64,000 bases of DNA from Antedon mediterranea. Lineage: Eukaryota > Echinodermata > Crinoidea > Comatulida > Antedonidae. Positions 2,428 through 55,655 of the stretch are shown one piece after another. Where the stretch lies: contig NC_092672.1 in NCBI RefSeq assembly GCF_964355755.1, positions 27,710,501 through 27,774,500 on the forward strand. The letters run 5' to 3'. Below the pieces are notes generated by a model. It worked only from the letters and a program-made list of their open reading frames with translations, was not told where the DNA came from and ran no database searches. Each line of letters starts with the position of its first letter. Within the stretch, counting starts at the first letter, position 1. The position numbers were made by a program, and so were the translations under genes.

Positions 2428-2488
2428 ATGTCATTAATAATTTTTATTGTGATATTTGGACTTCTGAATAATCTTGTCAATTCACAAA
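2428..2488 (+). CDS. Candidate signal-peptide exon (exon 1 of the receptor)
   Basis: ATG at 2428 opens 20 residues: Met-Ser, then a hydrophobic core (LIIFIVIFGLL), then a polar Asn/Ser/Gln end that looks like a signal-peptidase region. The exon ends in phase 1 at a consensus donor, gtgagt. That matches the phase-1 acceptor of the first HYR exon, and no better signal exon was seen nearer to it. The implied first intron would be 8.6 kb and would contain the small gene at 7573-9403. It could instead belong to another secreted product, since it is also in phase with the exon at 8166. Confidence 0.5.
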
Positions 2489-8400: not shown

Positions 8401-11400
8401 ATACACACTCCAAACAATGAAATGTGTGTTTGTACTTCATATTAAAGAACAATGTTAGTATAAAATAACTGTCGAAACAAACAATTGTTACAGTAATTTA
8501 TAAATATACCTCTTTTCTTTATTAAATATTTCCTCAATCAACTATTTTTCCAGGTGTCAATATGTTATAATATTCAACATGCGACAGGATGCTGACATCT
8601 TGACTGGTAAATTCAAATGTTGTTTCAACTTTACATTGACATTACATAATAACTCAATTGGTCAAGTTGCTCTTTAAATATACATTGTCCATTTGAGCAT
8701 AGAATTTCAAAATTGTTTATCCTATTTTTATGCATAATAAAGCAAACCTTTGGCTGGAACTTATTTTCCTATGAATTATCCATATATTATCATTATCTGC
8801 TACAAGAAATAGTTGTTAACATTTTGAAAATATAATAATGTTGATGCTCATTTTTTATGCAGATTGACATTTATTTGGTTGACCAATATTGTTTAATCTC
8901 AGGTGATCATCTAGGAGAAAGAGAAAATCAGAAGCTGCAGTACATCGACATGCTACAAAGTACAATGATTAAAATCCAGTCTTTAGAAGAGAATCTTGAG
9001 CATTTAAGAAATGAACTCTCAGTGTCACTTGTGACAAAACAGCATAGTAAGATTGCAGAGACTGGCCACATAATAAATCTAAAAGAACAAGAGGTCAAAG
9101 ACTTGGTCAGTCCTACATTATATACCTTTAAAATTATGTCTAAAACATGCAATACTATAAAAATGAATGCCATATTTCTTTTATATATTTTATATAGCGA
9201 ACTACTATGAACCAGAGAGATTTGAAACTGGAACTCTATGTACAAAAATGGTCGAGGTATTTAGAAAAAATAAATTCCTCGACAGCAGTACCATGGAAAG
9301 AGTTTTGTGGGAAATCATGAAGTCACATCTGACGTTTATTTCACCTGAGATCCAGCATGAAGTAACTAGGCCGGTAACTAAGTGCAGAAAAGTTGAGGAA
9401 TAGTTTGCTATTTCTCAGTTAATTGTTATAGTATTGCATATTATATGTACAGTATACCATATGAATGGTAGTATTTTTTTGTGTTATTGCTAGAACAATG
9501 ATTTTGTAAATATTTAACAAATGGTATATGAATTGTAATTTAATTTAATTTTTTGGAAGTTATTTTATTTTAATTTGGTTTATATATATTATTGATTGAT
9601 AACGGAAATTGATGTTATTTACTGATTTAGATTGTGATTGCATATACAATACAAATATGAAAGAAATATGCATTTATAATTAAATATCTAATGTCACAGT
9701 ACTCTATAGCTTCTTTCTATTAATATATTACAGATCTTTGACTAAGACATGCTAGGTAGGCTGCTAGCCTTTAACCTGCTGATGATGTAGCCTAGCCTAT
9801 ATATAGTATAGGCCTAGCTAGGCATGTAACCTGGCCTACTCTGTACTCCTCTCTCCCAATATGAATGATTATTAAAAAAGCTTAGGCCTAGGCTAGGCCT
9901 AATTTTTAATTAGGACCAGGAACAAGTAATTAATCAGCTTTATAACAGGTCAACTGTCATTTAGGCCCCCCGAATAGACATGTTTACATGTTAAAAATAA
10001 ACAGTTATTTTATTTTAATTTGGTTTATATATTAATAATTATTTATTGATAACGAAAATTTATGTTATTTACTGATTTAGATTGTGATTCATTGCATATC
10101 AAAATAATAAATATACAATACAAATATGAAAGAAATATGCATTTATGATTAAATATCTAATGTCACAGTACTATATAGCTTCTTTCTATTTAATATATTA
10201 CAGATCTTTGACTAAGACATGCTAGGTAGGCTGCTAGCCTTTAACCTGCTGATGAGGTAGCCTAGCCTATATATAATATAGGCCTAGCTAGGCCTGTAGC
10301 CTGGCCTACTCTGTACTCCTCTCTCCCAATATGAATGATTATTAAAAAAGCTTTAGGCCTAGGCTAGGCCTAATTTTTAATTAGGACCAGGAACAAGTAA
10401 TTAATCAGCTTTATAACAGGTCAACTGTCACTGAGGCCCCCCGAATATACATGTTTACGTGTTAAAAATAAACAGCCATTAGTCTTACACAGCTGGTTTT
10501 AACCACGCAATGGGGCCTGGGCATAGCCTATTATAAGCTAGCGTAGGAAAAAATCCAGCCAGGCAATATGAATACGATCCTTGTTAAAACAGTCAAGGAT
10601 AACTAAAAAATAAAGTATCCAACTAAATCAAAGAATTCAACAGAAAAAATTATTTTTAAACTGATATGGAAAACAACATTTATACCTACTTTTTAAATGT
10701 ATCACTTGAGAAAAAAACTGGCGTTGGGTGTACAATTTTCAATTACATTACCTCTTAAAATCCACGTGATAAAACAACGACAACATGTTTTTCACCTTCA
10801 TCCAGGGTTGTTCTAATGAATATTCATTATTTTTCTGACTTTCGCGGTCTTTATTTGTTTTTATTGGCTATTAAAAAACAGTCGTTTTATGCTTGATTGC
10901 TTCCGGGTTCCTCATGTGGTTTGTATACAATATGTTTTCGGAATCGCTACTCCATAAAACGCTATGAAACGTTGGGGGCACTGCACTTAATTCATATTTC
11001 TGGAACAGCTGTGGCGTCCACGCGACTAAAAATGTTTGTATATGTTACATATACTATTCAATGTTTTAATTTAGACACACCAATATGTTTTATTGCATTT
11101 CATTAATAGATAACAACAGTTCAATGATTGAATGCCCAACAAATACAACTTCAAACAATTATTTTGGAGAAGGAAATGGACTAATAGGTATCAGCACAGA
11201 TGAAGGAAGTCCAAATGCCACAGTCACCTGGGATCATCCTGTGACAAGTGGCAATGGAACAGTGACTGTGGTGTCATCACCATATGAGTCAGGTGACATG
11301 ATACCAATCGGTACTCACACAATCACCTTTACAGCAACTGATTCTTCTGGTAACATTGACATATGTGACTTTGGTCTTCAGGTTGTAGGTAAAATATTAT

Positions 11401-47400: not shown

Positions 47401-50400
47401 TGTTTAAAACAGCTTGGTAGAGATTTCCTGACTAATTCTCAACAAAAAAATGGATAAATTTAAAATTGTGGATAATATTTATATCTACTTCCTGGTTAAT
47501 TCTAGAAACATAATCGTTTTTACTACTGTGTATAATATAACCATTTAAATAACCATTTAATTATATTTCAGCCATCAGGAACAGGCCAACATGGTATAAC
47601 AAATTATTACTGCCTTGTTTAAAACAATTTAAACAATAATTCCTATGCAAAATAATTATTAATTTATGAGTTTGATTTATTGTTATTAGTAGACCCAATA
47701 ATGTTAAGGTTATGAACATGAATTGGTTGATCAATTGAGACAGGTAACTGTGCATTTGCTTTTTCACTTTTTTATTTTACAGTTAACTGAGAGTATAAGT
47801 ATAAGTGATATATTTGTTCAAGTTCTTAGACTTAGTGCTGGGAGTGTGATTGCAGATATCAATATACATACTCCAAGTGCAGACACAACTTACGATAATT
47901 TTATGAACAGTTTATCAGAAGACTTTAACATATCAGCAAATAACGGAAAAATTGGAAATTTTTCAATATTTAGCACTGGTAATTCAAAACTTATTCAAAC
48001 TACTACAATTTGTGTTTGTTATCAGTTTTATAAATTTATTTTATAAGCTTGTAATTGTATTATATCTTTTAATGTACTGTAATGGTACAGTAATAAAACA
48101 ATGTACCTTTTATTACAGAGAATTGTAGTAAAGATATCATAGAAGGTTTAACATTCGGCTCTTCTGCAGTTGGTCAAAATGTATCATCAGAAGAAGTTTG
48201 TCCACAATCTGCAGTCGAATGTAAGCTTCTTTTGTTTGTATTTGTTTGAACATTTTAAATGACCCGTATTAATATATTTTGTTGATATAATTTTATTGTT
48301 AAAAATTTAACTCTGGAAAAAAACCATACACATTGATATGGTAGGGCTACTACTACTACTGGTAATCAAACTGTTCATAATGATACATTCCATAAGGTTT
48401 GATTTTATGATAAGCAATAAAAAAAAATAAGTGTACCAAATTTGCTTTGAACCATGTTATAGATTGAAATGATACATTTCACATTCCCCAGTTTCCATAT
48501 TCATTTCACAGTATACTGTAAATGTTCATATCATTACATTAATAATGACAATACATAGGATGTGAATGTAGCAATAATATTAGTAATTTTATTATGTAAT
48601 AATGATGCTTGGAAACAAAAAGGTTAGCGATGCAGTGTAGGCATTATCGTCGTTGTGTTATCTTTTTTTTTTTTTTTTTTTTATTTTAACTTATTTTGTA
48701 AGTGCAGTAACGACATGGTAGATTAGAAAGATCAGTTAGTCATAGGACAGATGTATGACATTATTTATCAAGATAAAAAAGACGCCTACTACCGCTATGT
48801 TTGGTTTACTTATTAAGAACGCTAGCACAGACCATGAAATAAATTCATAGCTTCCCTCGTTCCTATATTTTTTCACGTAGTTTCATCAGTGATTTCCTAC
48901 GTTCCCTAACACCTGCAGAAACATCGTCGGTGATGAATATGCCTGTGAATAAATTATTTTTCAAGCATTTCGTAGGCATAGGGTAGGAGGTGATGCTGAT
49001 TTTAAGATCGATTGTTATTCTTTGAAACCAGAACAGTATCAGCAGTAACATATTACAACATTTTTATTGACAAATTGACAAAATATATTGAAATTAAACG
49101 TAAATTTCAGCAATAAATAAATTACAAATAGACGCATTCCACCGATTTGTAGCCCTCTATTATTTTTGCTCTTTTAGCGCGCCATAGCAACGAAAATATT
49201 GAACATGGAGGTTAATACGAAATTCAAGAAAGCGTGAAACACTCCGTAAATAAAAAATCAGTATTTTAGTGATTCTCCTTTATAAAAAGTACTTATGAGG
49301 TCTAATTTTAAGGTGTGGTATTCAGGATAAGTTAGTTTAACAAATTAATTAATGGAGTGGCGAAACCTCTTGAAACAATCGCAATGGAGTAAATAATATC
49401 AACAAAAAAGTGTGTTTGTTGTGAAATAATGGGTGCAAATATTGAGTTTATTTCTGTTTGTGATAAGTATTTAATTATATTTATTGTAAAAAAAATAATA
49501 ATAAATTAAACCTACTATGTTTAAAATTATGTATAGATAAGCAATTATTGTTTTAAGCTGTCTTTTGTAATCTGTAATCTTAGGTATGGGATCGTGCTTT
49601 CGTGATCTTAGGCTTTGTGCCACCCCTAACATGACGTTGTTTGGTCGTCGGTCGTGACGTAATGTTAAAACTAAAATACTATATATCCTTGTCATAGATG
49701 GTATGTCCCTGGGATTTTCTATATGCTTTAGTGATGGCCTGTCACCTGCCATGTGGCAAGAAGTGATGCATCGAAACTGTAGTGAGGCTACATCTGATCA
49801 ACTTTTAGAAAGGTTAAATATGGTTAGTATAGACATTATTTTATACAATATCTAGTGTTCAAAGAAATGTATTAGATAAGGTTATTGTAATCTTGTAAAT
49901 GTTTGACCTAAATGTTGTACTTCTAAACTTGTAGATAACTGAAAATAAAATATGTAAAAACACATTTTAATATTTATTTATTTATTTTATTATTACAATA
50001 AACATGTTGACAATGTAAGTCAATTTCTTTTTCGGCCGTGTTGTTAGTTTAATAACTGTTATTTTATTATTTATTATTTTACCATTGAAACACCTGTTCT
50101 AATCTGAAATTCCAATTTAATTGCGTCTATCGTAAACTTAATTTTGAGCTAAGGTTGATTTGCAGAGCATTTTCACTCTGTTTTATTATAATTTATTGTA
50201 GATGCCAATTACAGAGGAAAATGCAGAGGAAGTTCTTCAAGCAGTTAATAACATTACAACAACTGAACCAGATACTATTACACCAGACGGGTTGGAAGCA
50301 ACTGCAGAAATTATTGAAAGTGTTATTTCTGTAAATTCAAAATCTGCCGAGGTGATTTTATTCATTGTTTTGTTTACTATGCCGTAGATAAACAACCATA

Positions 50401-53400
50401 GTGAAACTAGAGTTCTTAATATCGTATGTTTGGCTATAATACAGGTGACATCAACGTTAGTTGACACTGTTGCTAGTCTGTTTGAAGTAGATGATGATGT
50501 ACTCTTTGAGAGTCAGATGGAAACACAAGCTCCTAGTAGAATTGTGGAATCCCTTGAAGAACAATTAGCAGTTGTTGATCTTGAAAACGAAACATATGTA
50601 TTTATAACTAACACGGTAGCAGTGCAAGCTCAGAGTTTAAAAAGCAATGAATTGGACAACATGGGAATTGGAATCGCATCTTACCAATCGGCAGATTCTA
50701 GTGTAATTGTGAATTTGACAGGATTCATTGAGCCAGAAGAGCTTGATAATTCTGCGTCTGTGGCATCTGTCAGTATCTATATTCCTGCTATTGACATTCT
50801 TGCAAGCTCCGATGGTAAGTGCATTGAGAAACATTATAAAACCATAAACAGCATCCATCATCATCCATAATTTATCATAACGTTATATATTATACTTGAG
50901 AGAGCCAAGAGCTGCATAAAACACAATATTGAATCTCGTAATGACTTTTTGTATAGCCATTACTCAGAAACAAGCATGTTTAACAGAACATTGAAAATGA
51001 TTGTGCCTAGAAATTTTCAGCAAAAAATGTTTCTCTACTGATTATTCGATTGTTTTTTTTTTATAATTAGGTGCTAATTTGCGTGTTGTTACAGTGGTAT
51101 ATAATGATAGTTCACTCTTTCCGACAAACCAGTTTGATACTGACATCAGGCGACCCAATGGTCAAGTTATTTCAACTTCAATACCCGGTGTTGAACTGAA
51201 AAATTTATCAGACCCAATAATAACAACATTTATTCCTGCTGAGGTAAATATACATTTTCAATGGATTTACGTTGATTGTTAGTTCAGTATACGAAACTAT
51301 GTTAATAACTATGGCCAAACCATTATTAAGGGAACTCCCTTATTAAAGTGTGTCAAAATGATACTTTCTCTGGTTTAGTGAGTTTTCTGACCTTATGATC
51401 CTTCAGGAAATTACCTTATGCATTCATAATCATCCCAATGTTTATTTCCTTTATTTCTAGATATCTGAGAATAACAACGAGACCGAGTGTGTGTTTTGGG
51501 ATTTTGAACTTGATGATGGTAATGGTGGCTGGTCAGGTACTGGATGCTACTTTGCTAATGGATCATTAGACGGCAGTAACAGACAAATTTGTCATTGTGA
51601 CCATTTAACAAATTTTGCAATTCTTATGGTAAAATTATGAATATTTTATTTTTGTTTAATTGTTGACAAGATTGTTTTTATTATTTTAAAATTAAATCTT
51701 GTTTACTGAGGGTGACCTAAAACAACATAAACTGACAACCAAATGGTCCTCACAAACGATAAAATAAACATGAATGAGCGTTTAAAAAAAAAATAATCTA
51801 GATGATGAAAAACTGTGTTTCGATCATTAAAATAACCAAAAGGTTGTTAATGAACATTTTGTGAATATGAATATCTATGGCTGATTTGTAATAGACTTGC
51901 CCCAAGTCTGTATTGTCTTTTTTTTAATTTATTTGTTTTTATTTCGACCGCGATTTTTGTCTGAAAATACAGACTTGTGAAACACGTATAGAAATCGATT
52001 TGCAGACCGCAAACATCCGATAAGAATGACGTAGGTTATCATACCGTATTTGGCTATATGGGGCGGGCGGTATGTAAATATGGATTTCGAATCAACCAAT
52101 GATCATTTTGTTTTAAAATGAAAAAGATCGAGTACGTACAGTGCTGAATGTACGATCGAGACTGTTGAAATATAAAATCGTGTTGCCAAGTTGTTTTGTT
52201 TACCTCCTTTGTAGGTCCTACTCAACTCGCACGTATGACCTGCCAAATAAAACGCCAATAAGGTAGGCCTACATACCACCACCACCGGTACACAACAGGA
52301 TTCACACACAACAGGGCTACACCACTACACAGAACAGGACAGGGTGGGAATTCAATCAAATTATCTCCGCCTAATAAATGATCCATTCAATGTTTGATTT
52401 GCGGAGAAGCTAGCCTATCATATCAAGACGAGTTTTCATGTTCTTGGGAAAAATCCCATCAATGTTTATTACCAGACTACTAGGCATATAAAATCATTTC
52501 TAGCCTTCAGAAACTGTCATCAATGTATAGTCGGGTCAAGATATGAAAATATAGGGCCTAACCCCAAAAAAATTGCAAGAAAAGGTTTTTTGATGTATTA
52601 CAATAAAATAAGGTCTCAAAAAACATATATCAAAAGTTTACTCAAATTAGACTACCGCAAAGGTCCAAAATTTGACGTTAAAAAAGATGGCCGCCAATTT
52701 TTCAAAACTTTCTACAGTTGACCTTATTTTATTGTAATTCATCAAAAAACCTTTTCTTGCAATTTTTTTGGGGTAATGAAACAGTTTGACTCGACTAGTA
52801 CCCAAGTACACATTGTCTAAACGTAACATAGCGCATGCGCACCATCTTAGTTGTTGAGTCTTTGAAATTCTGAAATATGAATATTAAAATGGCTGTACGA
52901 GTGAGTAGCCAATCGCATGCAGCTGAAACTAGTCAACCGGATAATCTATGCATCAAGAATTCTTGGTGTCAAACCACGTGAATTTTGCGTGTTTCCCCAG
53001 ATGGAGTTGTCAAACTAAAGTAATACACGTATGACACGCCATATGTGCAAAAATATTTATATTTTTACTAATATTAAGACAAAACTCCGTCTGGAGCCCA
53101 GACTAGATTTGTAAGTCTGGCAGTGTAAGATATTCCGGAGCAAACTTGTAGACATAGACAGCCGAACTACAGATGTTTTTGGATGTTAACTTGAGGATAG
53201 TGTGAGAGGATAAGCTTTGAGGAGGATTTTGCAAAATTTGAAGATGTGAGCTTTAAATAATGACTGGTTGTTGCAGCACGATAATAAATTCTTGAACGTA
53301 AATGCCGGTACAGCCGTTGTATTTAGTTTCCAGCATAAGTTTAATTTATCTGTACAAAATCTATAGCAATCAAGCCTAAAAGTATTAATTTGGCAATGTG

Positions 53401-55655
53401 GGTAATAATATGTAATGAATAAAATGAATCGGAATAAAATACTTTTAATTTGTAATTACATTTTGTTATATTTAGAATTTTTACTCAAGTGATACTACTA
53501 GTGATCCTGGTATTCCGATAGTTATAGCAAGGTACATCACAAATATTGGTCTTGGTGTTTCAATCGCTTGTTTACTTGCAACTATATTTACCTTTACAAC
53601 CAACAGGTAGGGCTTAGTTTTTATCATAAGTATTTTATACGTTCACTAGAAACTTTGTTGAAATTATGTAAATATTGTAATGTTTTAAAATGTATTCTTA
53701 TAGCAGAAGTTAACAGTGCATTTTGGGCATTATTATTTTTTGTACAATGCATTATAAAGCAGAACTTGTTTATTTTCCTTTTATTTTTCAGAAAGCTACG
53801 AAACAGTAAACCACAACAGATTTTATGTCACTTGTGTGTATCACTACTCGGCTTGTATTTGATCTTTCTCGTTGGAATTGACAGAACAAAAAAACGGCGC
53901 GCTTGTACTGTAATCGCTGGACTGATTCACTACTTTTTGCTCACATCTATCTTTTGGATGTCAGTGCAGGCTATTCATATGTATTATTTATTTGTTAAAG
54001 TGTATGATACACACATTTCTAGGTTTTTCTTTAAGGCCTGTCTTTTTGCTTGGGGTAAGTGGCTCATCATATACTCTAATTTTATCAGAATTCTGTATAA
54101 GTGCTATTTTTCAGTACACATTATTGTAAAAAAAAGATCAATGTAAAAAAATGTATTAAAAGCATGCCATTGATGATAAAAACTGATGTTGTGTAAGAGA
54201 TATACACTTGGGAAAATGAATGTACTGGTGTTATGCATTATTATTATTTGTTTTAAAGTTTTGTCAATTAGTAATAATGTAAGCTTATCGTAATTACAAA
54301 TGTTAAATTTATAACATTTACAAACTTTAATTCGTTAACAATGATAATGCCAATGTGTGAAGTGAAAACAAATCATATGCAAATGGAGGCATATGCTCGA
54401 TTGGATTATCAAAGCGATGACGGGAATTGTTGTTGACAATAATATCGATGCTAGTATCATGTGTACGTGAACAGTTTTCTGATTAAAATATTGTATCTGA
54501 TCATAATGTTTTCAATATTAACAGGTCTACCAGTTGTAATTGTTGCTGTAACTGTTGGAATTGATGTTGAAAATTATGCTAATACAGACTAGTAAGTAAC
54601 GTTAGCCTACTGCACAGATACCAGATTAAACCTCCTTATCTAATGATATTACTTTTCTTTTCATTCTTTTTTTTATGTACTTTCCATCTATTGTAACATG
54701 ATCTAATGTATTATTATTATATTATATTATTTGGAAACTCTGTTATTAATGTATGGAATTTCCCATTTGTAATGAAAATGTGTTTCAGTTAAGCAAACCA
54801 TTGTTTACTTTACAAATTTCACATCTACCATTTCACATTTTGCATTCGCAGTATTTGTTTATCCTCACTTTTGTAAATGTCTTGTAAAATAAATGTTATC
54901 TCATTTATGGCAGGGTCTAGTCTCGGTTTTGGCAATCTTGCAGATATTTTTTGTATTCATGTTTTCCAATTGATAGTAATTAATATGCCTACCTTATATA
55001 TTTCTAAAATTATCATTGTATTAGTACCTATTTAATATTAATAGTACTAATAATAAACAGTATTTACACTTGTATTACTCTTTTTTTCAGTTGCTTCCTT
55101 GCTGTAACCCGTATGTATTACGGCGTAGCATTACCTATTGCAGTCACACTACTCACCAATGTGGTTGTATTTGTTATGGTATTACACAGTCTAAGTAAAC
55201 TTGGCAACGTTGCAAAACAAGCTCACAAAATTCGTAAGAAGCGGAAGGGCATGTATTTACTACAGAATGCCGTGTGTATATCGGCTGTGATGGGAATGAC
55301 GTGGCTTATTGGATTCTTTGCAATTGGTAGTGCCTCCGAGATTGTCCAGTTACTTTTCTGTATCCTGAATTCTTTTCAAGGATTCTTTATATTCGTTATG
55401 TATTGTTTCAGAAGTAAAGATATTCGTAGATTTTGGGCAGACAAAACCTTCAAAAAATGTTACGCGATGTCGTCATCATTTATAGGAGCAAAAAATAGCA
55501 ATCTGTACTCTAGTGGGGGTAAAAGTACTGGTTTTAATTCATCGGCTTCTGGAAGAAACCAAACACATTCAGATTCTAGGAATTATTCAAATAGCAACCA
55601 AGTTTCCTTTGCCCGATCTTCACGTGTTTCTAATGACTTTAGTTATCGGACGTAA
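2428..55655 (+). CDS. Giant HYR-rich adhesion GPCR (whole gene, split into 53 exons listed separately)
   Basis: This is a predicted cell-surface receptor: signal peptide, 38 HYR domains (about residues 21-3273), EGF-like (3274-3311), Ig-like (3312-3402), SEA-like (about 3403-3505), a cysteine-containing linker (about 3506-3581), GAIN plus GPS (about 3582-3868), seven transmembrane helices and a serine/asparagine-rich tail. Exon joins were made by hand from AG/GT sites; the phases agree throughout and the chain totals 12,630 nt including the stop. The GPS and helices follow the adhesion (B2) GPCR family, in which autoproteolysis at HL|T leaves a tethered agonist. SEA plus Ig before GAIN recalls vertebrate ADGRF receptors, but the HYR array is not a vertebrate feature. 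HYR domains occur in echinoderm hyalin and other adhesive extracellular proteins, so matrix or cell adhesion is the inferred role. The body from 11110 is well supported; the link to the signal exon at 2428 is less certain. Confidence 0.88.
2660..3180. repeat. Two diverged copies of an AT-rich repeat
   Basis: The words gttacggacgggaaatatc at about 2706 and gttaaggacgggacatatc at about 3087 begin similar ~70-bp stretches (both continue with catttaaatcc and a later accatg). The word cccatccg near 2878 and 4230 is the reverse of part of it. Confidence 0.5.
3521..3786 (+). mobile_element. tRNA-derived SINE
   Basis: RNA polymerase III box A-like tggcttggtgg at 3529-3539 and a perfect box B ggttcaagtcc at 3573-3583 have tRNA spacing. 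The body runs about 200 bp and ends in a (TAAAA)n tail at about 3748-3786. Not a functional tRNA: no cloverleaf 3' half was found. Confidence 0.8.
3787..7140. other. Noncoding, repeat-scattered stretch
   Basis: AT-rich sequence with no supported exon. Contains ggggcggacacaggg-type dispersed repeat near 5005, a pyrimidine-rich CT tract at 6679-6740, and scattered short frames without domains. Part of the receptor's first intron if the signal exon is correct. Confidence 0.4.
7141..7240 (-). mobile_element. GTCGG-family element, short copy
   Basis: About 100 bp in reverse: starts aacaaggtcaacagcc, contains a single cgac/agac tract, and ends tatagagtcgcg. This is the long element with its middle removed, leaving one microsatellite tract. 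Confidence 0.7.
7573..9403 (+). CDS. Four-exon small gene, 187 aa, unknown function
   Basis: Coding exons are 7573-7585, 8166-8366, 8903-9046 and 9198-9403. All joins are phase 1 and all use GT-AG; the donors begin gtaag, gtaaat and gtaag. The sum is 564 nt with the stop at 9401-9403. The N-terminus has a CIYCFC cluster followed by a Cys and several His (ACRHL, then HD and DH), which may be a metal-binding finger. The middle is a Leu/Glu/Lys-rich predicted coiled coil (around SLEENLEHLRNEL). The C-terminus is compact and helical-looking, with WEIMKSHL. I do not recognise the family. A further GT/AG-bounded segment at 8554-8607 was left out because its phase does not fit. Exon 1 is only 13 nt and is the weakest part. 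The gene lies on the same strand as the receptor and possibly inside its first intron. Confidence 0.5.
9558..10476. repeat. Tandem direct duplication, about 445-bp unit
   Basis: Sequence from agttattttattttaattt at 9558 recurs at 10003 with few substitutions and small indels, including the run of aggcctag words and the closing ttaaaaataaacag (about 9990 and 10462). Lies 3' of the small gene. Confidence 0.85.
10477..11109. other. Noncoding stretch before the first HYR exon
   Basis: No exon supported. At about 11016-11032 it holds tccacgcgactaaaaat, a solo terminus of the GTCGG-family element in reverse orientation. Confidence 0.4.
11110..11388 (+). CDS. HYR exon 1 (type A)
   Basis: 93 residues, phase 1-1. 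Opens DNNSSMIECP and carries VTWDHP, GTHTITFTATDSSGN and a second Cys (DICDFGL), the usual HYR signature of two cysteines and a P-G-x-H/T-x-V/I-x-[FY]-x-A-x-D strand. It is the shortest type A copy, lacking the two-residue SN insertion of the others. First recognisable HYR domain of the gene. Confidence 0.88.
11588..11833 (+). CDS. HYR exon 2 (type C)
   Basis: 82 residues, phase 1-1. Opens DNEDPIIKNCP; has VSWIEPTATDNSG, FPIGNSLVTYTA and the second Cys in AICSF. One of only two intact type C exons; its near twin is HYR exon 4. Confidence 0.9.
12060..12314 (+). CDS. HYR exon 3 (type B)
   Basis: 85 residues, phase 1-1. Opens DPESPDIINCP; contains VTWVEPTATDNSG and FPIGDTTVQYNVSDSYGN, with second Cys in ERCSF. 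Donor is GAAG|gtaggt. Confidence 0.9.
12315..13078. other. Intron between HYR exons 3 and 4
   Basis: 764 bp, AT-rich. Its last ~120 bp duplicate the sequence before HYR exon 2 (ttgcaacacaatttactaat region), marking the boundary of the C-B pair duplication. No exon seen in the remainder. Confidence 0.6.
13079..13324 (+). CDS. HYR exon 4 (type C)
   Basis: 82 residues, phase 1-1. Near copy of HYR exon 2. Flanking intron sequence, including the run leading to the acceptor, is also copied, showing a genomic duplication of a C-B pair of about 1.45-1.49 kb. Confidence 0.9.
13510..13764 (+). CDS. HYR exon 5 (type B)
   Basis: 85 residues, phase 1-1. Near copy of HYR exon 3 (differences such as TPVPVADYT and DSFGNYN). 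Second member of the duplicated C-B pair. Confidence 0.9.
13765..14286. other. Intron between HYR exons 5 and 6
   Basis: 522 bp. A stretch near 13990-14100 (gctgaaacttcaggtcaaat) is similar to 32470-32580 in the intron before HYR exon 17, so intron segments were duplicated too. No exon seen. Confidence 0.5.
14287..14571 (+). CDS. HYR exon 6 (type A)
   Basis: 95 residues, phase 1-1. Opens DNERPMVECPKN and carries VTWDPPLASDNSN, the full-length type A form. Donor is GAAG|gtacaa, a weaker match than its neighbours. Confidence 0.9.
14745..14879. repeat. Long hairpin-forming inverted repeat
   Basis: Arms of about 60 bp (14745-14803 and 14818-14879) pair with few mismatches around a 14-bp loop; the inner arm is gggaatatatatttccc. 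Lies in the intron between HYR exons 6 and 7. Could be a small foldback element. Confidence 0.8.
15779..15889 (+). mobile_element. GTCGG-family element, short copy
   Basis: About 110 bp: tttagtcgcgtgcaacgcg start, a short GTCG tract, then gagcacgcgactgcagcc and ggccttgtt. Diverged (tatatcggtcgattgg), so older than the long copies. The ends carry the inverted pair agtcgcgtgc / gcacgcgact. Confidence 0.7.
16529..16783 (+). CDS. HYR exon 7 (type B, subclass I)
   Basis: 85 residues, phase 1-1. Opens DQEAPDIINCP with EFIELESNYTSGNIMFP. The downstream intron starts with a sequence shared with HYR exons 11 and 15, which defines subclass I. Confidence 0.9.
16784..17927. other. Intron between HYR exons 7 and 8
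   Basis: 1.14 kb, repeated almost in full at 24532-25702 and 29566-30989 after the matching subclass I exons. No exon found. Confidence 0.6.
17928..18212 (+). CDS. HYR exon 8 (type A)
   Basis: 95 residues, phase 1-1. Carries DEGSPNATVTWDLPLASD and GIYPITFTADDSSGN. Exon and both flanking introns are closely repeated at HYR exons 10, 12, 14 and 16. Confidence 0.9.
18549..18803 (+). CDS. HYR exon 9 (type B, subclass II)
   Basis: 85 residues, phase 1-1. Has MNMIVNTTTGEEFGIN and SKYTSGYIMFP; pairs with HYR exon 13 rather than with its adjacent B exons. The intron upstream lacks the decayed type C exon present in equivalent places. Confidence 0.9.
19561..20378 (-). mobile_element. GTCGG-family element, long copy 2
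   Basis: About 818 bp in reverse orientation, from aacaaggccaacagcc to cgactaaaaatt. Similar to the copies at 964 and 22261 over its whole length; forms one arm of the inverted repeat. Confidence 0.8.
20920..21720. repeat. Repeat shared with 31320-32215
   Basis: Both stretches contain, in order, atgcctgctaataatc, tccaacca/tccaacta, catcagggcttcaat, tccagga near atagtt, and a G-rich end with ggcagtgtgg. Similarity is patchy. This copy has an 18-G run near 21600. Confidence 0.6.
22261..23059 (+). mobile_element. GTCGG-family element, long copy 3
   Basis: About 799 bp, plus orientation, tttttagtcgcgtggaagcg to ggccttgtt. Opposite arm to the copy at 19561. Confidence 0.8.
23495..23779 (+). CDS. 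HYR exon 10 (type A)
   Basis: 95 residues, phase 1-1. Near copy of HYR exon 8, with substitutions such as SPNTTVTW and CEFTIKVEG. Preceded by the 4.7-kb intron containing the large inverted-repeat insertion. Confidence 0.9.
24002..24165 (+). pseudogene. Decayed type C HYR exon, copy 1
   Basis: After an intact-looking ttatcag acceptor the sequence reads in phase as a type C start (NEEPILYTCPINDTTVN, then TTTGQPTANIS). The conserved Trp is Cys, and homology fades before the strand that should carry the second Cys. No phase-1 donor is visible. It is probably skipped. The right boundary is approximate. Confidence 0.7.
24277..24531 (+). CDS. HYR exon 11 (type B, subclass I)
   Basis: 85 residues, phase 1-1. 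Near copy of HYR exon 7 with IMFLIGDTAVQYN. The copied downstream intron confirms subclass I. Confidence 0.9.
24532..25702. other. Intron between HYR exons 11 and 12
   Basis: 1.17 kb, near copy of the intron at 16784-17927. No exon found. Confidence 0.6.
25703..25987 (+). CDS. HYR exon 12 (type A)
   Basis: 95 residues, phase 1-1. Near copy of HYR exon 8; VNWDPP replaces VTWDLP. The intron after it matches the intron after exon 8 for about 250 bp, then diverges because exon 8's intron is shorter. Confidence 0.9.
25988..26956. other. Intron segment after HYR exon 12
   Basis: Starts as a copy of the intron after HYR exon 8, then holds about 600 bp found only here and (shortened) after exon 14 (28660-28930), leading to the decayed type C exon. 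Confidence 0.5.
26957..27105 (+). pseudogene. Decayed type C HYR exon, copy 2
   Basis: Same relic as at 24002 but further decayed: the first codons are lost, a TAA stop lies just after the acceptor (ccaatgtaaaatacg), and the Trp codon is TGC. The C-terminal half is missing as in the other copies. Right boundary approximate. Confidence 0.7.
27225..27479 (+). CDS. HYR exon 13 (type B, subclass II)
   Basis: 85 residues, phase 1-1. Near copy of HYR exon 9 (YTSGYIMFP form) with INFTWVEPTGTDNSG. Confidence 0.9.
27480..28135. other. Intron between HYR exons 13 and 14
   Basis: 656 bp. It is the uninterrupted counterpart of the 4.7-kb intron after HYR exon 9, which is how the 4-kb insertion was recognised. 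No exon found. Confidence 0.6.
28136..28420 (+). CDS. HYR exon 14 (type A)
   Basis: 95 residues, phase 1-1. Near copy of HYR exon 8 with SVKTDEGSPN and TAHDSSGNIETC. Confidence 0.9.
28421..29034. other. Intron segment after HYR exon 14
   Basis: Shortened relative of the segment after HYR exon 12, ending at the third decayed type C exon. No other exon seen. Confidence 0.5.
29035..29200 (+). pseudogene. Decayed type C HYR exon, copy 3
   Basis: Best preserved of the three relics: acceptor intact and the conserved Trp codon still TGG (ISWIEST). It is truncated at the same place as the others and has no second Cys and no evident donor, so the truncation predates the duplications. Right boundary approximate. 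Confidence 0.7.
29311..29565 (+). CDS. HYR exon 15 (type B, subclass I)
   Basis: 85 residues, phase 1-1. Near copy of HYR exons 7 and 11, with IMFVIGDSAVQYN. Its position about 5.03 kb after exon 11 gives the period of the higher-order repeat. Confidence 0.9.
29566..30705. other. Intron between HYR exons 15 and 16, first part
   Basis: Near copy of 16784-17900, interrupted at its 3' end by the LINE-like fragment that follows. No exon found. Confidence 0.6.
30706..30947 (+). mobile_element. Possible LINE 3' fragment
   Basis: About 240 bp absent from the equivalent introns of HYR exons 8, 10, 12 and 14. Contains ttagttgcccctgcccattg and ends gaataaataaatgaaatga, resembling a 5'-truncated non-LTR retrotransposon tail with a short A-rich repeat. 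Family not identified. Confidence 0.45.
30990..31274 (+). CDS. HYR exon 16 (type A)
   Basis: 95 residues, phase 1-1. N-terminal two thirds match HYR exon 8, but the end reads DTCNFGLNVEG, closer to the FGL endings of exons 1 and 18. It may be a recombinant between subtypes. Last A exon of the recently amplified stretch. Confidence 0.9.
31320..32215. repeat. Repeat shared with 20920-21720
   Basis: Second copy of the patchy repeat described for 20920; it fills much of the 1.7-kb intron between HYR exons 16 and 17. The following 32216-32995 shows only the weak similarity to 13990-14100. Confidence 0.6.
32996..33253 (+). CDS. HYR exon 17 (type B)
   Basis: 86 residues, phase 1-1, one residue longer than other B exons because of LLPPVADYTSGD. 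Otherwise resembles HYR exons 3 and 5. Confidence 0.9.
33325..34471. mobile_element. Foldback element flanked by 138-bp direct repeats
   Basis: Direct repeats 33325-33462 and 34334-34471 are almost identical. Between them is an 871-bp insert that begins tgaggtggtttcccgaatg (33463) and ends with the inverse of that sequence (about 34277-34331); an extra direct copy of the left end (34216-34272) makes a near-perfect 110-bp palindrome at the right side. No coding frame. Confidence 0.75.
33997..34037. repeat. 41-bp near-perfect palindrome
   Basis: 19-bp arms (aaagattatatagagccgc) with a single mismatch and a 3-nt loop (tac), inside the foldback element. Confidence 0.85.
34517..34801 (+). CDS. 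HYR exon 18 (type A)
   Basis: 95 residues, phase 1-1. Diverged type A: DNERPTIKCPKNVTSNNYN, NTDHGSTNATVTWDPP, ending FGLRIQG. Confidence 0.9.
34802..35199. other. Intron between HYR exons 18 and 19
   Basis: 398 bp. Contains two diverged ~75-bp direct repeats around catcagtattgtgggacc (34862) and catgagcattgtggtacc (34953). No exon. Confidence 0.5.
35200..35454 (+). CDS. HYR exon 19 (type B)
   Basis: 85 residues, phase 1-1. Most diverged B exon: DEHILDIINCP start, and FHTLGETPEP where others have TDNSGE. Core strand FPIGSTTVRYNVSDSAEN is kept. Confidence 0.87.
35455..37056. other. 1.6-kb intron with relic repeats
   Basis: Starts with a short inverted repeat (taggtgatcattt, about 35470-35500). 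From about 35640 to 36060, gcgcg-rich words and ctatacgagcaagttaaaaatg recall the interior of the GTCGG-family element (gttatacgagcacgtcaaaagtg), suggesting an old relative. The rest up to 36900 has repeated gacgtcat/tggcca words. No exon. Confidence 0.4.
37057..37341 (+). CDS. HYR exon 20 (type A)
   Basis: 95 residues, phase 1-1. Diverged A exon: DIESPAIDCPTNVTSNNYN, VTWNPPVTSDNSN, ending CDFSFRVQG. Last A exon before the D-E-F trios; its DIE start resembles type D. Confidence 0.9.
37515..37766 (+). CDS. HYR exon 21 (type D, trio 1)
   Basis: 84 residues, phase 1-1. Opens DIEPPEVLTCPDNTTYSTD; core LGTTMVTYEATDTSMN and second Cys in GYCIFYI. First exon of the D-E-F trio. Confidence 0.9.
37899..38138 (+). 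CDS. HYR exon 22 (type E, trio 1)
   Basis: 80 residues, phase 1-1. Opens DDEPPVLECPDDI; core FGTHNVTYTGIDQSGN and second Cys in GTCGFEI. Reads ISIIWSEP, shared only with trio 2. Confidence 0.9.
38457..38699 (+). CDS. HYR exon 23 (type F, trio 1)
   Basis: 81 residues, phase 1-1. Opens DKEPPVISDCPPDMNWTT; core IGDTIVTYTAEDVYAN and second Cys in ATCIFKI. Donor CAAG|gttagt is non-consensus at +3 and is conserved in all six F copies. Confidence 0.9.
38889..39140 (+). CDS. HYR exon 24 (type D, trio 2)
   Basis: 84 residues, phase 1-1. Differs from trio 1 at DSGNPNRT, NLPGS and SNIFQL. Introns are also nearly identical to trio 1. Confidence 0.9.
39280..39519 (+). CDS. HYR exon 25 (type E, trio 2)
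   Basis: 80 residues, phase 1-1. Protein-identical to the trio 1 E exon, including ISIIWSEP. Confidence 0.9.
39838..40080 (+). CDS. HYR exon 26 (type F, trio 2)
   Basis: 81 residues, phase 1-1. Only trio with YIDDTIV instead of YIGDTIV, losing the conserved Gly of the core strand. Confidence 0.9.
40270..40521 (+). CDS. HYR exon 27 (type D, trio 3)
   Basis: 84 residues, phase 1-1. Shares DPGNPNKT and NVPGS with trio 1; unique FYISII ending. Confidence 0.9.
40655..40894 (+). CDS. HYR exon 28 (type E, trio 3)
   Basis: 80 residues, phase 1-1. First E exon with ISITWSEP, the form kept in trios 4 and 5. Confidence 0.9.
41214..41456 (+). CDS. HYR exon 29 (type F, trio 3)
   Basis: 81 residues, phase 1-1. 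Protein-identical to the trio 1 F exon. Confidence 0.9.
41646..41897 (+). CDS. HYR exon 30 (type D, trio 4)
   Basis: 84 residues, phase 1-1. Reads VLSCPDN (others VLTCPDN) and DSGNPNKT; the VLSC form recurs in the last D exon. Confidence 0.9.
42030..42269 (+). CDS. HYR exon 31 (type E, trio 4)
   Basis: 80 residues, phase 1-1. Protein-identical to the trio 3 E exon, with a synonymous ACG Thr codon in PTYTD. Confidence 0.9.
42589..42831 (+). CDS. HYR exon 32 (type F, trio 4)
   Basis: 81 residues, phase 1-1. LLPTHSNG replaces LLSTHSNG, shared with trio 5. Confidence 0.9.
43004..43255 (+). CDS. HYR exon 33 (type D, trio 5)
   Basis: 84 residues, phase 1-1. Unique NPNRSDVNW, which removes the N-glycosylation-like NRT site of trio 2. 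Acceptor sequence (atttgcag) differs from earlier D exons. Confidence 0.9.
43388..43627 (+). CDS. HYR exon 34 (type E, trio 5)
   Basis: 80 residues, phase 1-1. Reads TDNSAKTVIL where others have TDNSGNTVIL. The intron after it is shortened by about 140 bp. Confidence 0.9.
43804..44046 (+). CDS. HYR exon 35 (type F, trio 5)
   Basis: 81 residues, phase 1-1. Protein-identical to the trio 4 F exon. Confidence 0.9.
44217..44232 (+). pseudogene. Stub of a type D HYR exon
   Basis: The acceptor and first 16-17 bases of a D exon (DIEPPE) are present, then the sequence switches within CAGA to the intron that normally precedes an F exon. The rest of D, all of E and the intervening introns are missing. 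The frame stays open from the stub into HYR exon 36, so use of the upstream acceptor would add about 20 residues. Confidence 0.8.
44277..44519 (+). CDS. HYR exon 36 (type F, orphan)
   Basis: 81 residues, phase 1-1. The most diverged F exon: DKEAPVIS, TATWTEPTAEDNAG, SFLPTHRNG, ATCNFTI. It has lost its D and E partners by deletion. Both its own acceptor (taacag) and the D-stub acceptor upstream are available. Confidence 0.88.
44715..44966 (+). CDS. HYR exon 37 (type D, last)
   Basis: 84 residues, phase 1-1. VLSCPDN form with NPYKTNVNW, LDYRSNIDPSS. More diverged than trios 1-5, so likely an older copy at the array edge. Confidence 0.9.
45026..45126 (+). mobile_element. 101-bp GTCGG mini-element with TA duplication
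   Basis: Inserted in the last D-E intron. The five paralogous introns read tttttaattctg without interruption; here tagttcactatgtgg to ggccttgt is inserted between two TA dinucleotides. This defines both ends of this short form. Confidence 0.8.
45203..45442 (+). CDS. HYR exon 38 (type E, last; GC donor)
   Basis: 80 residues, phase 1-1. Reads PDTSEISITW and SGHMFVVGIHNVAYTG. The donor is GGAG|gcaagc, whereas all five other E exons have GAAG|gtaagc, so the intron must be a GC-AG intron. No GT donor in the right phase lies nearby before the stop. Confidence 0.88.
45606..45719 (+). CDS. EGF-like domain exon
   Basis: 38 residues, phase 1-1. Six cysteines in EGF spacing: DSCSSLPCQNGGTC, then MCICP and GNLCQ. 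No calcium-binding consensus (D-x-D/N-E) at the start. Links the HYR block to the Ig domain. Confidence 0.9.
45720..46594. other. Intron between EGF and Ig exons
   Basis: 875 bp, no repeat family or exon recognised. Confidence 0.5.
46595..46867 (+). CDS. Ig-like domain exon
   Basis: 91 residues, phase 1-1. Typical Ig marks: VTFQC (first Cys), WRWYKDD (core Trp), and GNQGYYYCKA (D/G-x-Y-x-C second Cys). Ends VLVVTG, the usual last strand. A single Ig precedes the SEA-like region, as in ADGRF-type receptors. Confidence 0.88.
46868..47264. other. Intron between Ig and SEA exons
   Basis: 397 bp, AT-rich, nothing recognised. Confidence 0.5.
47265..47377 (+). CDS. SEA-like domain, first exon
   Basis: Phase 1 to phase 0. 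Reads VPVSVSFLNLQFTSVL, then SSEEFKN and a strand TIIVNL, matching the opening strand-helix of SEA domains (hydrophobic strand, L..S.EF). No other domain was considered as good a fit. Confidence 0.75.
47378..47782. other. Intron inside the SEA-like domain
   Basis: 405 bp. Contains an AG/GT-bounded 22-23-nt segment near 47572 that would break the frame and was not used. Nothing else seen. Confidence 0.5.
47783..47978 (+). CDS. SEA-like domain, second exon
   Basis: Phase 0 to phase 1. Continues the SEA pattern: helix then FVQVLRLSAGSVIADINIH, the G-S-V turn that in many SEA domains is the autocleavage site. Ends with a Ser/Asn-rich stretch before the next cysteines. Confidence 0.8.
48119..48220 (+). 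CDS. Linker exon before GAIN, with two Cys
   Basis: Phase 1-1, about 34 residues: ENCSKDIIEG, GSSAVGQNVSSEEVCPQS. Together with the next exon it may form a cysteine-bridged module like the hormone-receptor motif found before GAIN, but the match is weak. Confidence 0.75.
48221..49697. other. 1.48-kb intron before the HRM-like exon
   Basis: Contains a 20-T run near 48664 and AT-rich sequence; no exon or clear mobile element. Confidence 0.5.
49698..49822 (+). CDS. Hormone-receptor-motif-like exon
   Basis: Phase 1 to phase 0. Contains GFSICFSDGLSPAMWQEV and HRNCSEATSDQLLERL. The Cys, then Trp, then Cys order resembles an HRM domain and the residues after it start the first GAIN helix. Assigned by position and pattern only. 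Confidence 0.75.
49823..50201. other. Intron between the HRM-like exon and GAIN exon 1
   Basis: 379 bp, AT-rich, nothing recognised. Confidence 0.5.
50202..50351 (+). CDS. GAIN domain exon 1 (helical subdomain)
   Basis: Phase 0-0, 50 residues. Amphipathic helices EENAEEVLQAVNNITT and GLEATAEIIESVISVN match GAIN subdomain A (residues before the beta-sandwich). Confidence 0.83.
50445..50814 (+). CDS. GAIN domain exon 2
   Basis: Phase 0 to phase 1, about 123 residues. Has helix VTSTLVDTVASLFEV, the helix SRIVESLEEQLAVV, then strands YVFITNTVAVQAQ and ASVSIYIP typical of the GAIN A-to-B transition (P-x-x-I/L after the strand). Confidence 0.88.
51071..51243 (+). CDS. GAIN domain exon 3 (beta-sandwich)
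   Basis: Phase 1 to phase 0. LRVVTVVYNDSSLFP, then VISTSIPGVELKNLSDPI and ITTFIP: the V-x-N-S-x-I/P and L-x-x-P-I strands of GAIN subdomain B. Confidence 0.88.
51461..51628 (+). CDS. GPS exon with tethered agonist
   Basis: Phase 0-0, 56 residues. Complete GPS: CVFWDF, GGWSGTGC, then CHCDHLTNFAILM. The cleavage triad His-Leu|Thr is intact (His codon 51602, Thr codon 51608), so autoproteolysis is expected from family knowledge. The new N-terminus TNFAILM is a canonical Stachel sequence. Confidence 0.95.
52562..52773. mobile_element. 212-bp MITE with 54-bp terminal inverted repeats
   Basis: Left end ccccaaaaaaattgcaag (52562-52615) and its inverse (52720-52773) pair over about 54 bp. Both sides are flanked by TAA (52559-52561 and 52774-52776), a 3-bp target duplication as in PIF/Harbinger elements. 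It lies in the intron between the GPS and TM1 exons, whose other parts (51629-52561, 52774-53475) hold nothing recognised. Confidence 0.85.
53476..53606 (+). CDS. 7TM exon 1 (TM1)
   Basis: Phase 0 to phase 2. Short linker NFYSSDTTSD, then hydrophobic helix ITNIGLGVSIACLLATIF ending in TTNR. The 1.85-kb intron before it separates the Stachel from TM1. Confidence 0.9.
53792..54054 (+). CDS. 7TM exon 2 (TM2-TM3, start of TM4)
   Basis: Phase 2 to phase 1. TM2 ILCHLCVSLLGLYLIFLVGI, then DRTKKRRAC (basic loop; Cys for the extracellular disulfide), TM3 GLIHYFLLTSIFWMSVQAIH, ending FFFKACLFAWG. These are family B2 landmarks (HYF.L..F.WM..E/QA). Confidence 0.95.
54055..55090. other. Introns flanking the short TM4 exon
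   Basis: 470 bp and 499 bp of AT-rich sequence on either side of 54525-54591. No repeats recognised. Confidence 0.5.
54525..54591 (+). CDS. 7TM exon 3 (TM4 and loop 2)
   Basis: Phase 1 to phase 2, 67 nt. GLPVVIVAVTVGID completes TM4 (the GxP motif), followed by loop residues NYANTD. The split codon joins TA to T, giving the Tyr before the loop-2 Cys (YCF). Confidence 0.92.
55091..55655 (+). CDS. 7TM exon 4 (TM5-TM7, tail, stop)
   Basis: TM5 GVALPIAVTLLTNVVVFV; basic loop KIRKKRKG; TM6 GMTWLIGFFA with the family's switch Trp; TM7 CILNSFQGFFIFVMYC (LNS-QG motif). The cytoplasmic tail of about 75 residues is rich in Ser and Asn, with no domain recognised. Stop at 55653-55655. Confidence 0.95.

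Follow-up and report, generated by a model that had tools for sequence, protein, structure and literature searches.

A probable giant adhesion GPCR with 38 HYR domains in the crinoid Antedon mediterranea, from a family of about 15 close members

The genome of the crinoid Antedon mediterranea appears to encode, in one gene, an adhesion GPCR of 4,209 residues with 38 HYR domains ahead of its receptor part. We think it likely that this protein is a mechanosensitive receptor, anchored to matrix or to cells and switched on by a tethered agonist, whose number of HYR domains changes by duplication and decay. The gene lies in a stretch of 64,000 nucleotides that we analysed as a whole (contig C3, 27710501-27774500, plus strand; referred to as the window), and positions without a contig name are positions in this window.

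We rebuilt the gene model from open frames and splice sites. It spans 2428-55655 on the plus strand in 53 exons, from an ATG at 2428 to a TAA that ends at 55655, and the translated chain has no internal stop. Of the 52 introns, 51 are GT-AG and one is GC-AG (its GC donor sits after 45442, the end of the HYR 38 exon), and all end in AG. The HYR array (exons 11110-45442) encodes residues 21-3273, all 38 of its exons are symmetric (phase 1-1), and the tail past the array has 936 residues. An earlier note on this DNA had chained 38 HYR domains with EGF, Ig, SEA, GAIN, GPS and 7TM in frame, and we re-derived that chain at the same length. Its exons, along with three decayed exons, are as follows, with the evidence in parentheses.

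2428-2488, +, exon 1, start codon and signal peptide (MSLIIFIVIFGLLNNLVNSQ), phase 0-1 (ORF; exon and donor matched elsewhere; aligned in closest paralogue)
11110-11388, +, HYR 1 (Pfam; splice sites)
11588-11833, +, HYR 2 (Pfam)
12060-12314, +, HYR 3 (Pfam)
13079-13324, +, HYR 4 (Pfam)
13510-13764, +, HYR 5 (Pfam)
14287-14571, +, HYR 6 (Pfam)
16529-16783, +, HYR 7 (Pfam)
17928-18212, +, HYR 8 (Pfam)
18549-18803, +, HYR 9 (Pfam)
23495-23779, +, HYR 10 (Pfam)
24004-24246, +, decayed HYR exon, outside the chain (HMM, from 24007, and tblastn; open-frame counterpart in closest paralogue)
24277-24531, +, HYR 11 (Pfam)
25703-25987, +, HYR 12 (Pfam)
26958-27050, +, decayed HYR exon fragment with an in-frame stop (tblastn)
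27225-27479, +, HYR 13 (Pfam)
28136-28420, +, HYR 14 (Pfam)
29037-29177, +, decayed HYR exon fragment (HMM, from 29040, and tblastn)
29311-29565, +, HYR 15 (Pfam)
30990-31274, +, HYR 16 (Pfam)
32996-33253, +, HYR 17 (Pfam)
34517-34801, +, HYR 18 (Pfam)
35200-35454, +, HYR 19 (Pfam)
37057-37341, +, HYR 20 (Pfam)
37515-37766, +, HYR 21, opens triplet block (Pfam)
37899-38138, +, HYR 22 (Pfam)
38457-38699, +, HYR 23 (Pfam)
38889-39140, +, HYR 24 (Pfam)
39280-39519, +, HYR 25 (Pfam)
39838-40080, +, HYR 26 (Pfam)
40270-40521, +, HYR 27 (Pfam)
40655-40894, +, HYR 28 (Pfam)
41214-41456, +, HYR 29 (Pfam)
41646-41897, +, HYR 30 (Pfam)
42030-42269, +, HYR 31 (Pfam)
42589-42831, +, HYR 32 (Pfam)
43004-43255, +, HYR 33 (Pfam)
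43388-43627, +, HYR 34 (Pfam)
43804-44046, +, HYR 35 (Pfam)
44277-44519, +, HYR 36 (Pfam)
44715-44966, +, HYR 37 (Pfam)
45203-45442, +, HYR 38, GC donor (Pfam; donor read)
45606-45719, +, EGF exon (Pfam EGF; present in paralogues)
46595-46867, +, Ig exon (Ig_2, under cut-off; matches elsewhere in the genome)
47265-47377, +, SEA, first half (Pfam SEA, barely above cut-off; paralogues)
47783-47978, +, SEA, second half, with G|SVI motif (Pfam SEA; motif across paralogues)
48119-48220, +, first linker exon (paralogues)
49698-49822, +, second linker exon (paralogues; GPR128_N below cut-off across both linker exons)
50202-50351, +, GAIN exon 1 (paralogues; alignment to ADGRG6 GAIN)
50445-50814, +, GAIN exon 2 (paralogues; alignment to ADGRG6 GAIN)
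51071-51243, +, GAIN exon 3 (paralogues; alignment to ADGRG6 GAIN)
51461-51628, +, GAIN exon 4 with GPS, HL|TNFAILM (Pfam GPS; motif in 14 of 14 paralogue loci)
53476-53606, +, TM1 exon (paralogues; Pfam; solved-structure matches)
53792-54054, +, TM2-TM3 exon (paralogues; solved-structure matches)
54525-54591, +, TM4 exon (paralogues; solved-structure matches)
55091-55655, +, TM5-TM7 and cytoplasmic tail, stop codon (paralogues; solved-structure matches)

Taken alone, each of the 38 HYR exons scored above the curated Pfam cut-off of 21.7 bits (45.9 to 72.8 bits). An HMM built from 37 of them and run on both strands of the window found no further intact HYR; its extra matches were the decayed HYRs at 24007 and 29040 and a few others at E above 1. 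In the tail, Pfam identified 7tm_2, the secretin-type 7TM of class B2 receptors (6e-41, 140.7 bits against a cut-off of 20.6), GPS directly before TM1 (3e-13, 50.5 bits), and EGF (1.1e-6, above its cut-off). SEA was barely over its cut-off (5e-6, 27.0 bits against 26.4), Ig_2 fell under its own (1.7e-5, 25.4 bits against 27), as did four other Ig models, and the linker exons matched GPR128_N, the model for the N-terminal domain of ADGRG7 (GPR128), below its cut-off (4e-4, 20.8 bits against 27.2). Neither the tail nor the 38 HYR exons had a Pfam match to Calx-beta, EPTP, CUB or pentraxin. The domain chain is not a product of chance, since the tail exons recur singly, and mostly at full length, in paralogous loci with HYR arrays ahead of them.

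The Pfam GAIN model had no match in the tail at E<=1; the GAIN region aligns over 253 residues with the solved GAIN domain of ADGRG6 (E=1.3e-14). Among solved structures, the GPS-7TM part best matched ADGRG2 (2.8e-52), ADGRG6 (3e-50) and ADGRL3 (5.6e-47), while the 7TM matched ADGRF1 (1e-27) and ADGRV1 (7e-16) more weakly than ADGRG2 or ADGRG6. Adhesion GPCRs were the top solved matches for both the 7TM and the GAIN regions, in keeping with the kind of receptor that had been proposed. By sequence, the receptor part is nearest to ADGRG2 and ADGRG6 among solved structures, a kinship to be read as a best-match statement and not as a place in a tree with vertebrate receptors. The SEA exons had no significant homologue among solved structures (the best was the protease stem of TMPRSS11D, E 0.99), and two HYR domains that we searched had no match there at E<=1. 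A model of one HYR exon, made from 21 HYR sequences, is all-beta (mean pLDDT 88.1, pTM 0.74), and among its nearest neighbours in the PDB are rod domains of bacterial adhesins and of cadherins, as weak matches (best E 1.5e-3, none <=0.001). Across the whole protein there are 126 N-glycosylation sequons.

The earlier note had also treated the HYR array and the receptor exons as parts of the same gene. The alternative is a pair of genes, first a matrix gene of hyalin type with the HYR exons, which would end near 45.4 kb, and then a separate EGF-Ig-SEA adhesion GPCR. The same genome does hold HYR clusters without a nearby GPS match among the matches listed. At the junction in question, HYR 38 is separated from the EGF exon by an intron of just 163 bp, in phase 1-1 on both sides. 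We also read 14 paralogue loci besides the window, in stretches of about 10 kb (L031, L032 and L018 are upstream extensions). The tail exons that lie inside these stretches keep the order of the window in 12 of 14 loci, at 51-97% identity; L010 and L014 are diverged, with their tail exons partly matched, and the TM4 exon of L013 was not found, an exception to the otherwise kept order. (The stretches of L005, L008, L009 and L012 start inside the tail or at its edge, those of L002, L003, L004, L009, L011 and L012 stop before or inside the last exon, and in L002 one GAIN exon is split over two overlapping matches.) An HYR exon is followed by an EGF exon on the same strand, within 10 kb, in 9 of the 14 loci (L001-L004, L006, L007, L011, L013 and L014), and this order is also found in L009 with L031 and in L008 with the upstream L018. 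Furthermore, HYR exons lie upstream on the same strand in all 15 genes whose TM2-3 exon is at least 69% identical; for 12 of these the DNA was read, with HYR directly before EGF, and for three (L005, L012 and the gene at C1:39.64 Mb) the position in match listings is the basis. The closest paralogue carries a signal-peptide exon upstream of its own HYR array. We rejected the separate-gene reading because of the short intron and because the order recurs in paralogues, and we consider it very improbable. The reading as one gene is supported, and is borne out as far as genome sequence allows.

Judged by exon identity, the gene belongs to a family with about 15 close members. We found 72 genome matches to the 88-residue TM2-3 exon among 122 scored candidates: 15 genes (including the one in the window) are at 69% or more, three are at 58-59%, and the rest are at 56% or less. 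The Ig exon had 19 genome matches (window included) of 44 scored, 15 of them at 63% or more. One of these 15, at C8:18588163, is without a TM2-3 match nearby; C8:18586777-18588426 has HYR and Ig exons of the family and is possibly a partial gene. The Ig match at C2:32851356 contains a stop, so the gene there may be broken, and in the gene at C1:38.2 Mb the Ig exon matches at just 40%. The closest paralogue (L008, C1:7248501-7298500) has a signal-peptide exon, 22 HYR, EGF and the whole tail through 7TM, and its signal-peptide exon and 5' flank can be aligned to the window. In a FastTree analysis of the GAIN-7TM exons, the window joins L008 with support of 1.00; the deeper node that joins this pair to L001, L003 and L005 has support of 0.08.

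Several other loci are related to this family by their domains. Two pairs of family members, at C1:39.567-39.597 and 39.641-39.670 Mb and at C1:6.56-6.60 and 6.77-6.79 Mb, have equal or nearly equal HYR scores and matching spacing within each pair, which suggests recent large duplications. At C9:18.96-18.98 Mb (L033, L034), in a cluster that also matches the signal-peptide exon, there is a sister adhesion GPCR. It has CUB, MAM, CUB, one HYR and GPS exons above the Pfam cut-offs, EGF-like and Ig-like exons below them, and a SEA-like exon that has no Pfam match and contains GSVI; part of this gene (the ORFs at L034:7743 and 8526) seems to be locally duplicated. The HYR giants may have derived from a CUB-MAM-HYR-EGF-Ig-SEA-GAIN receptor by loss of CUB and MAM and expansion of HYR, or the change may have run the other way. 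At C7:2285068-2320980, on the minus strand, at least 11 GPS matches, whose scores are the same or almost the same, stand in tandem, with no 7tm_2 beside them among the matches listed. Large HYR clusters at C1:39.05-39.14, C1:14.30-14.44, C10:11.87-11.89 and C4:29.47-29.49 Mb have no GPS near them among the matches listed and are possibly hyalin-like or EBR1-like.

Exon 1 is the weakest junction of the chain because the first intron is 8.6 kb long. A DNA search of the genome with 2100-2700 of the window found the window itself and 20 other places (one in two pieces). For 17 of the 20 (on C1 and C8 and within the receptor cluster of C9) the match is confined to 69-85 bp at exon 1 with its donor, the pattern that a conserved coding exon would give. 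The other three also share non-coding flank, at 82-84% identity: one is the start of the closest paralogue, and two, on C8 and C2, sit beyond the 3' end of a receptor and would be the starts of further genes. At C1:6.52-7.25 Mb there are 14 matches to the signal-peptide exon compared with 8 receptors of the family, so some of these exons belong to other or partial genes. Among the matches listed, the receptors on C4, at C1:38.2 Mb and at C1:39.57/39.64 Mb have no signal-peptide exon close by, and the pairing of signal-peptide exons with receptors covers only part of them.

Within intron 1 (8845-9400, plus strand) are two adjacent ORFs, members of a dispersed repeat family, that match the genome at 56 and 50 places; many copies are 90-99% identical and they are often paired at the same spacing. 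We rejected these ORFs as part of the gene because they belong to this repeat family, and the pair is likely to be a mobile element or a multicopy gene fragment.

Most of HYR 21-38 is made up of tandem copies of one unit of three exons, 1.27-1.38 kb long. Over exons and introns together, identity is 98.4-99.2% among blocks 1-3, and 95.7-97.6% when block 4 or 5 is compared with the other blocks. The closest paralogue has fewer such blocks. Together with the three relic exons, this pattern indicates that the number of HYR domains changes by tandem duplication of three-exon blocks and by exon decay. The architecture could be right and the count of 38 still be wrong for the animal, if the triplet blocks (37515-44276) are mis-assembled, polymorphic or alternatively spliced. 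The near-identity of blocks 1-3, introns included, and the lower total in the closest paralogue both lend this some weight, as do the phase 1-1 exons, which are symmetric so that any one could be skipped in frame. Blocks 4 and 5 differ from blocks 1-3 by 2.4-4.3%, an amount of change that an exact duplication in assembly does not explain, at least for part of the array. We think a wrong count unlikely.

We compared the gene with its closest paralogue. Pooled dN/dS was 0.44 for HYR, from 10 reciprocal pairs, as no reciprocal partner was accepted for 12 of the paralogue's 22 HYR. For the tail, counted without the EGF exon, it was 0.44 in the Ig-SEA-linker exons, 0.43 in the 7TM exons and 0.27 in GAIN. 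dS was similar across the parts (0.10-0.16), as expected if the HYR array and the tail were duplicated together. Three short tail exons have dN/dS above 1 (TM1 2.9, n3 1.35 and TM4 1.13), each with few changes, and these count against uniform constraint. In HYR, we found no positive selection in this comparison (single pairs 0.25-0.83; 0.51-0.91 within repeat classes).

The protein probably has two cleavage sites. HL|T in GAIN domains and G|S in SEA domains are established self-cleavage sites of these families, and the self-cleaving type of SEA combines the SEA fold with a G|S[VI] motif. The GPS reads HLTNFA[IV]LM in 14 of 14 paralogue loci (HL|TNFAILM in the window), which fits the pattern of adhesion GPCRs, an HL|[ST] site followed by a tethered agonist. 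GSVI is present in all 11 of the second-half SEA exons that tblastn found, and also in L032 (upstream of L005); this exon was not found by tblastn in L010 or L014. Wherever its exon turned up, the SEA motif was no more variable than the GPS, which makes two cleavage sites likely; in the protein of the window they are predicted after residue 3861 (HL|T) and after residue 3460 (SEA G|S). Double self-cleavage, at the GPS and in SEA, is likely by analogy with these families.

These features suggest how the receptor might work. By analogy with other adhesion GPCRs, and with GAIN and SEA domains, it would cleave itself at HL|T and probably also at the SEA G|S; the pieces would stay joined non-covalently, so that SEA and GPS would act as pre-cleaved joints. 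The 38 HYR domains, each a beta-sandwich, would line up as an elongated rod, perhaps on the order of 100 nm or longer and probably carrying many glycans, whose partner would be either the extracellular matrix or an adjacent cell. Once tension was applied or the amino-terminal fragment was shed, the tethered agonist TNFAILM would be freed and would turn on the 7TM; reach and avidity would depend on the length of the rod, which varies between paralogues. The most likely role of the protein is plausibly that of a mechanosensitive receptor for matrix or for cell contact.

Two other roles deserve to be weighed against this one. The protein might be a receptor for gametes or for self, with an HYR array that, like that of sea urchin EBR1, binds in a species-specific or individual-specific manner and is here coupled to a G protein. 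EBR1, which carries several HYR repeats, is a candidate for the bindin receptor of the egg (PMC8403831, in part), and EBR1_5 has a transmembrane segment, SEA and seven HYR, three of them under positive selection (PMC5521101, in part). The HYR blocks in the window were recently duplicated or homogenised, which would also fit such a role, but the HYR exons do not show positive selection against the closest paralogue (pooled dN/dS of 0.44), and we regard a recognition role as unlikely. Alternatively, the receptor might be a matrix tether in which the 7TM merely anchors the protein and does not signal. The part before TM1 makes up 92% of the protein, as might be expected of a tether; yet the 7TM is conserved, all 14 paralogue loci carry the tethered agonist TNFA[IV]LM and dN/dS in GAIN is low (0.27), so there seems to be only a slight chance that this is right. 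A mechanosensitive receptor remains our preferred reading.

Several known proteins resemble parts of this receptor. ADGRG6 (GPR126) and ADGRG2, of group VIII, are the best solved matches for its GAIN, GPS and 7TM. ADGRG6 has a SEA domain before GAIN, as the receptor in the window does, and its ectodomain contains CUB, so the sister receptor on C9 (CUB, MAM, CUB and one HYR) is closer to its layout. The receptor in the window differs from both ADGRG6 and ADGRG2 in having 38 HYR with EGF and Ig, and no CUB or pentraxin match. ADGRV1 (VLGR1) is alike in having a giant ectodomain with one repeat in tens of copies, but that repeat is Calx-beta, which with EPTP defines ADGRV1, and the 7TM subfamily also differs. 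ADGRF5 (GPR116, or Ig-Hepta) has SEA and Ig before GAIN, like the receptor in the window, and a G|S cleavage site in SEA; to our knowledge it has no HYR, its domain order and 7TM are unlike those described here, and ADGRF1, also of group VI, is a weaker match for the 7TM. Hyalin, a matrix protein of the hyaline layer, shares the tandem HYR domains; as far as we know it is without a GAIN-7TM part, which the gene model in the window adds. Sea urchin EBR1 and EBR1_5 have HYR arrays as well, accompanied in EBR1_5 by SEA and a transmembrane segment (PMC5521101, in part); for EBR1, which contains CUB and TSP repeats, no transmembrane domain is predicted (PMC8403831, in part). The available parts of these two papers mention no 7TM or GPS for EBR1 or EBR1_5, in contrast to the GAIN-7TM of the receptor in the window.

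In the available parts of three papers (PMC2246102, PMC4302439 and PMC13197933) we found no adhesion GPCR with HYR. Across the open-licence literature that we searched, just one text, PMC12716839, brought HYR or hyalin repeat and adhesion GPCR terms together; neither HYR nor hyalin occurs in the part of it available, and the rest may already name HYR among adhesion GPCR ectodomains. (The "hyr" match in PMC6626334 refers to the hyrax, not to the domain, and was discarded.) Other HYR-7TM receptors may be annotated among predicted animal proteins. HYR arrays and adhesion GPCRs are each known, and what we describe appears to be an expanded adhesion GPCR family in which their combination is a variant.

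The rest of the genome offers some context. On C2:7827700-8206250 (L019-L030) there is a compact Hox cluster of 12 homeobox exons, three of them posterior-type, in which the second homeobox exon from the posterior-type end is inverted. Three posterior-type genes with one inverted is what we take to be the ambulacrarian pattern, that of an echinoderm or a hemichordate. A search of the genome for COX1 had no match, which need not mean that the gene is missing. At 354 Mb in 18 contigs the genome is small beside the measured echinoderm classes, which do not include crinoids, range from 500 Mb to 4 Gb and mostly have 36-46 chromosomes as diploids (PMC3308324, in part).

If our reading is correct, one multigene family joins the HYR repeats of matrix proteins and egg receptors to adhesion GPCR signalling, and its ectodomain length has changed recently. 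The family would be a natural series in which to ask how ectodomain length and two cleavage sites tune the mechanosensing of adhesion GPCRs, and it would also let one ask whether HYR recognition proteins can signal directly. A bolder proposal, which we hold only tentatively and think unlikely, is that some 15 giant HYR adhesion GPCRs form a lineage-specific, triplet-amplified and double-cleaved recognition repertoire, with HYR number and sequence setting specificity for self, mate or matrix. If that were true, an EBR1-like adhesion system would gain a direct G-protein output.
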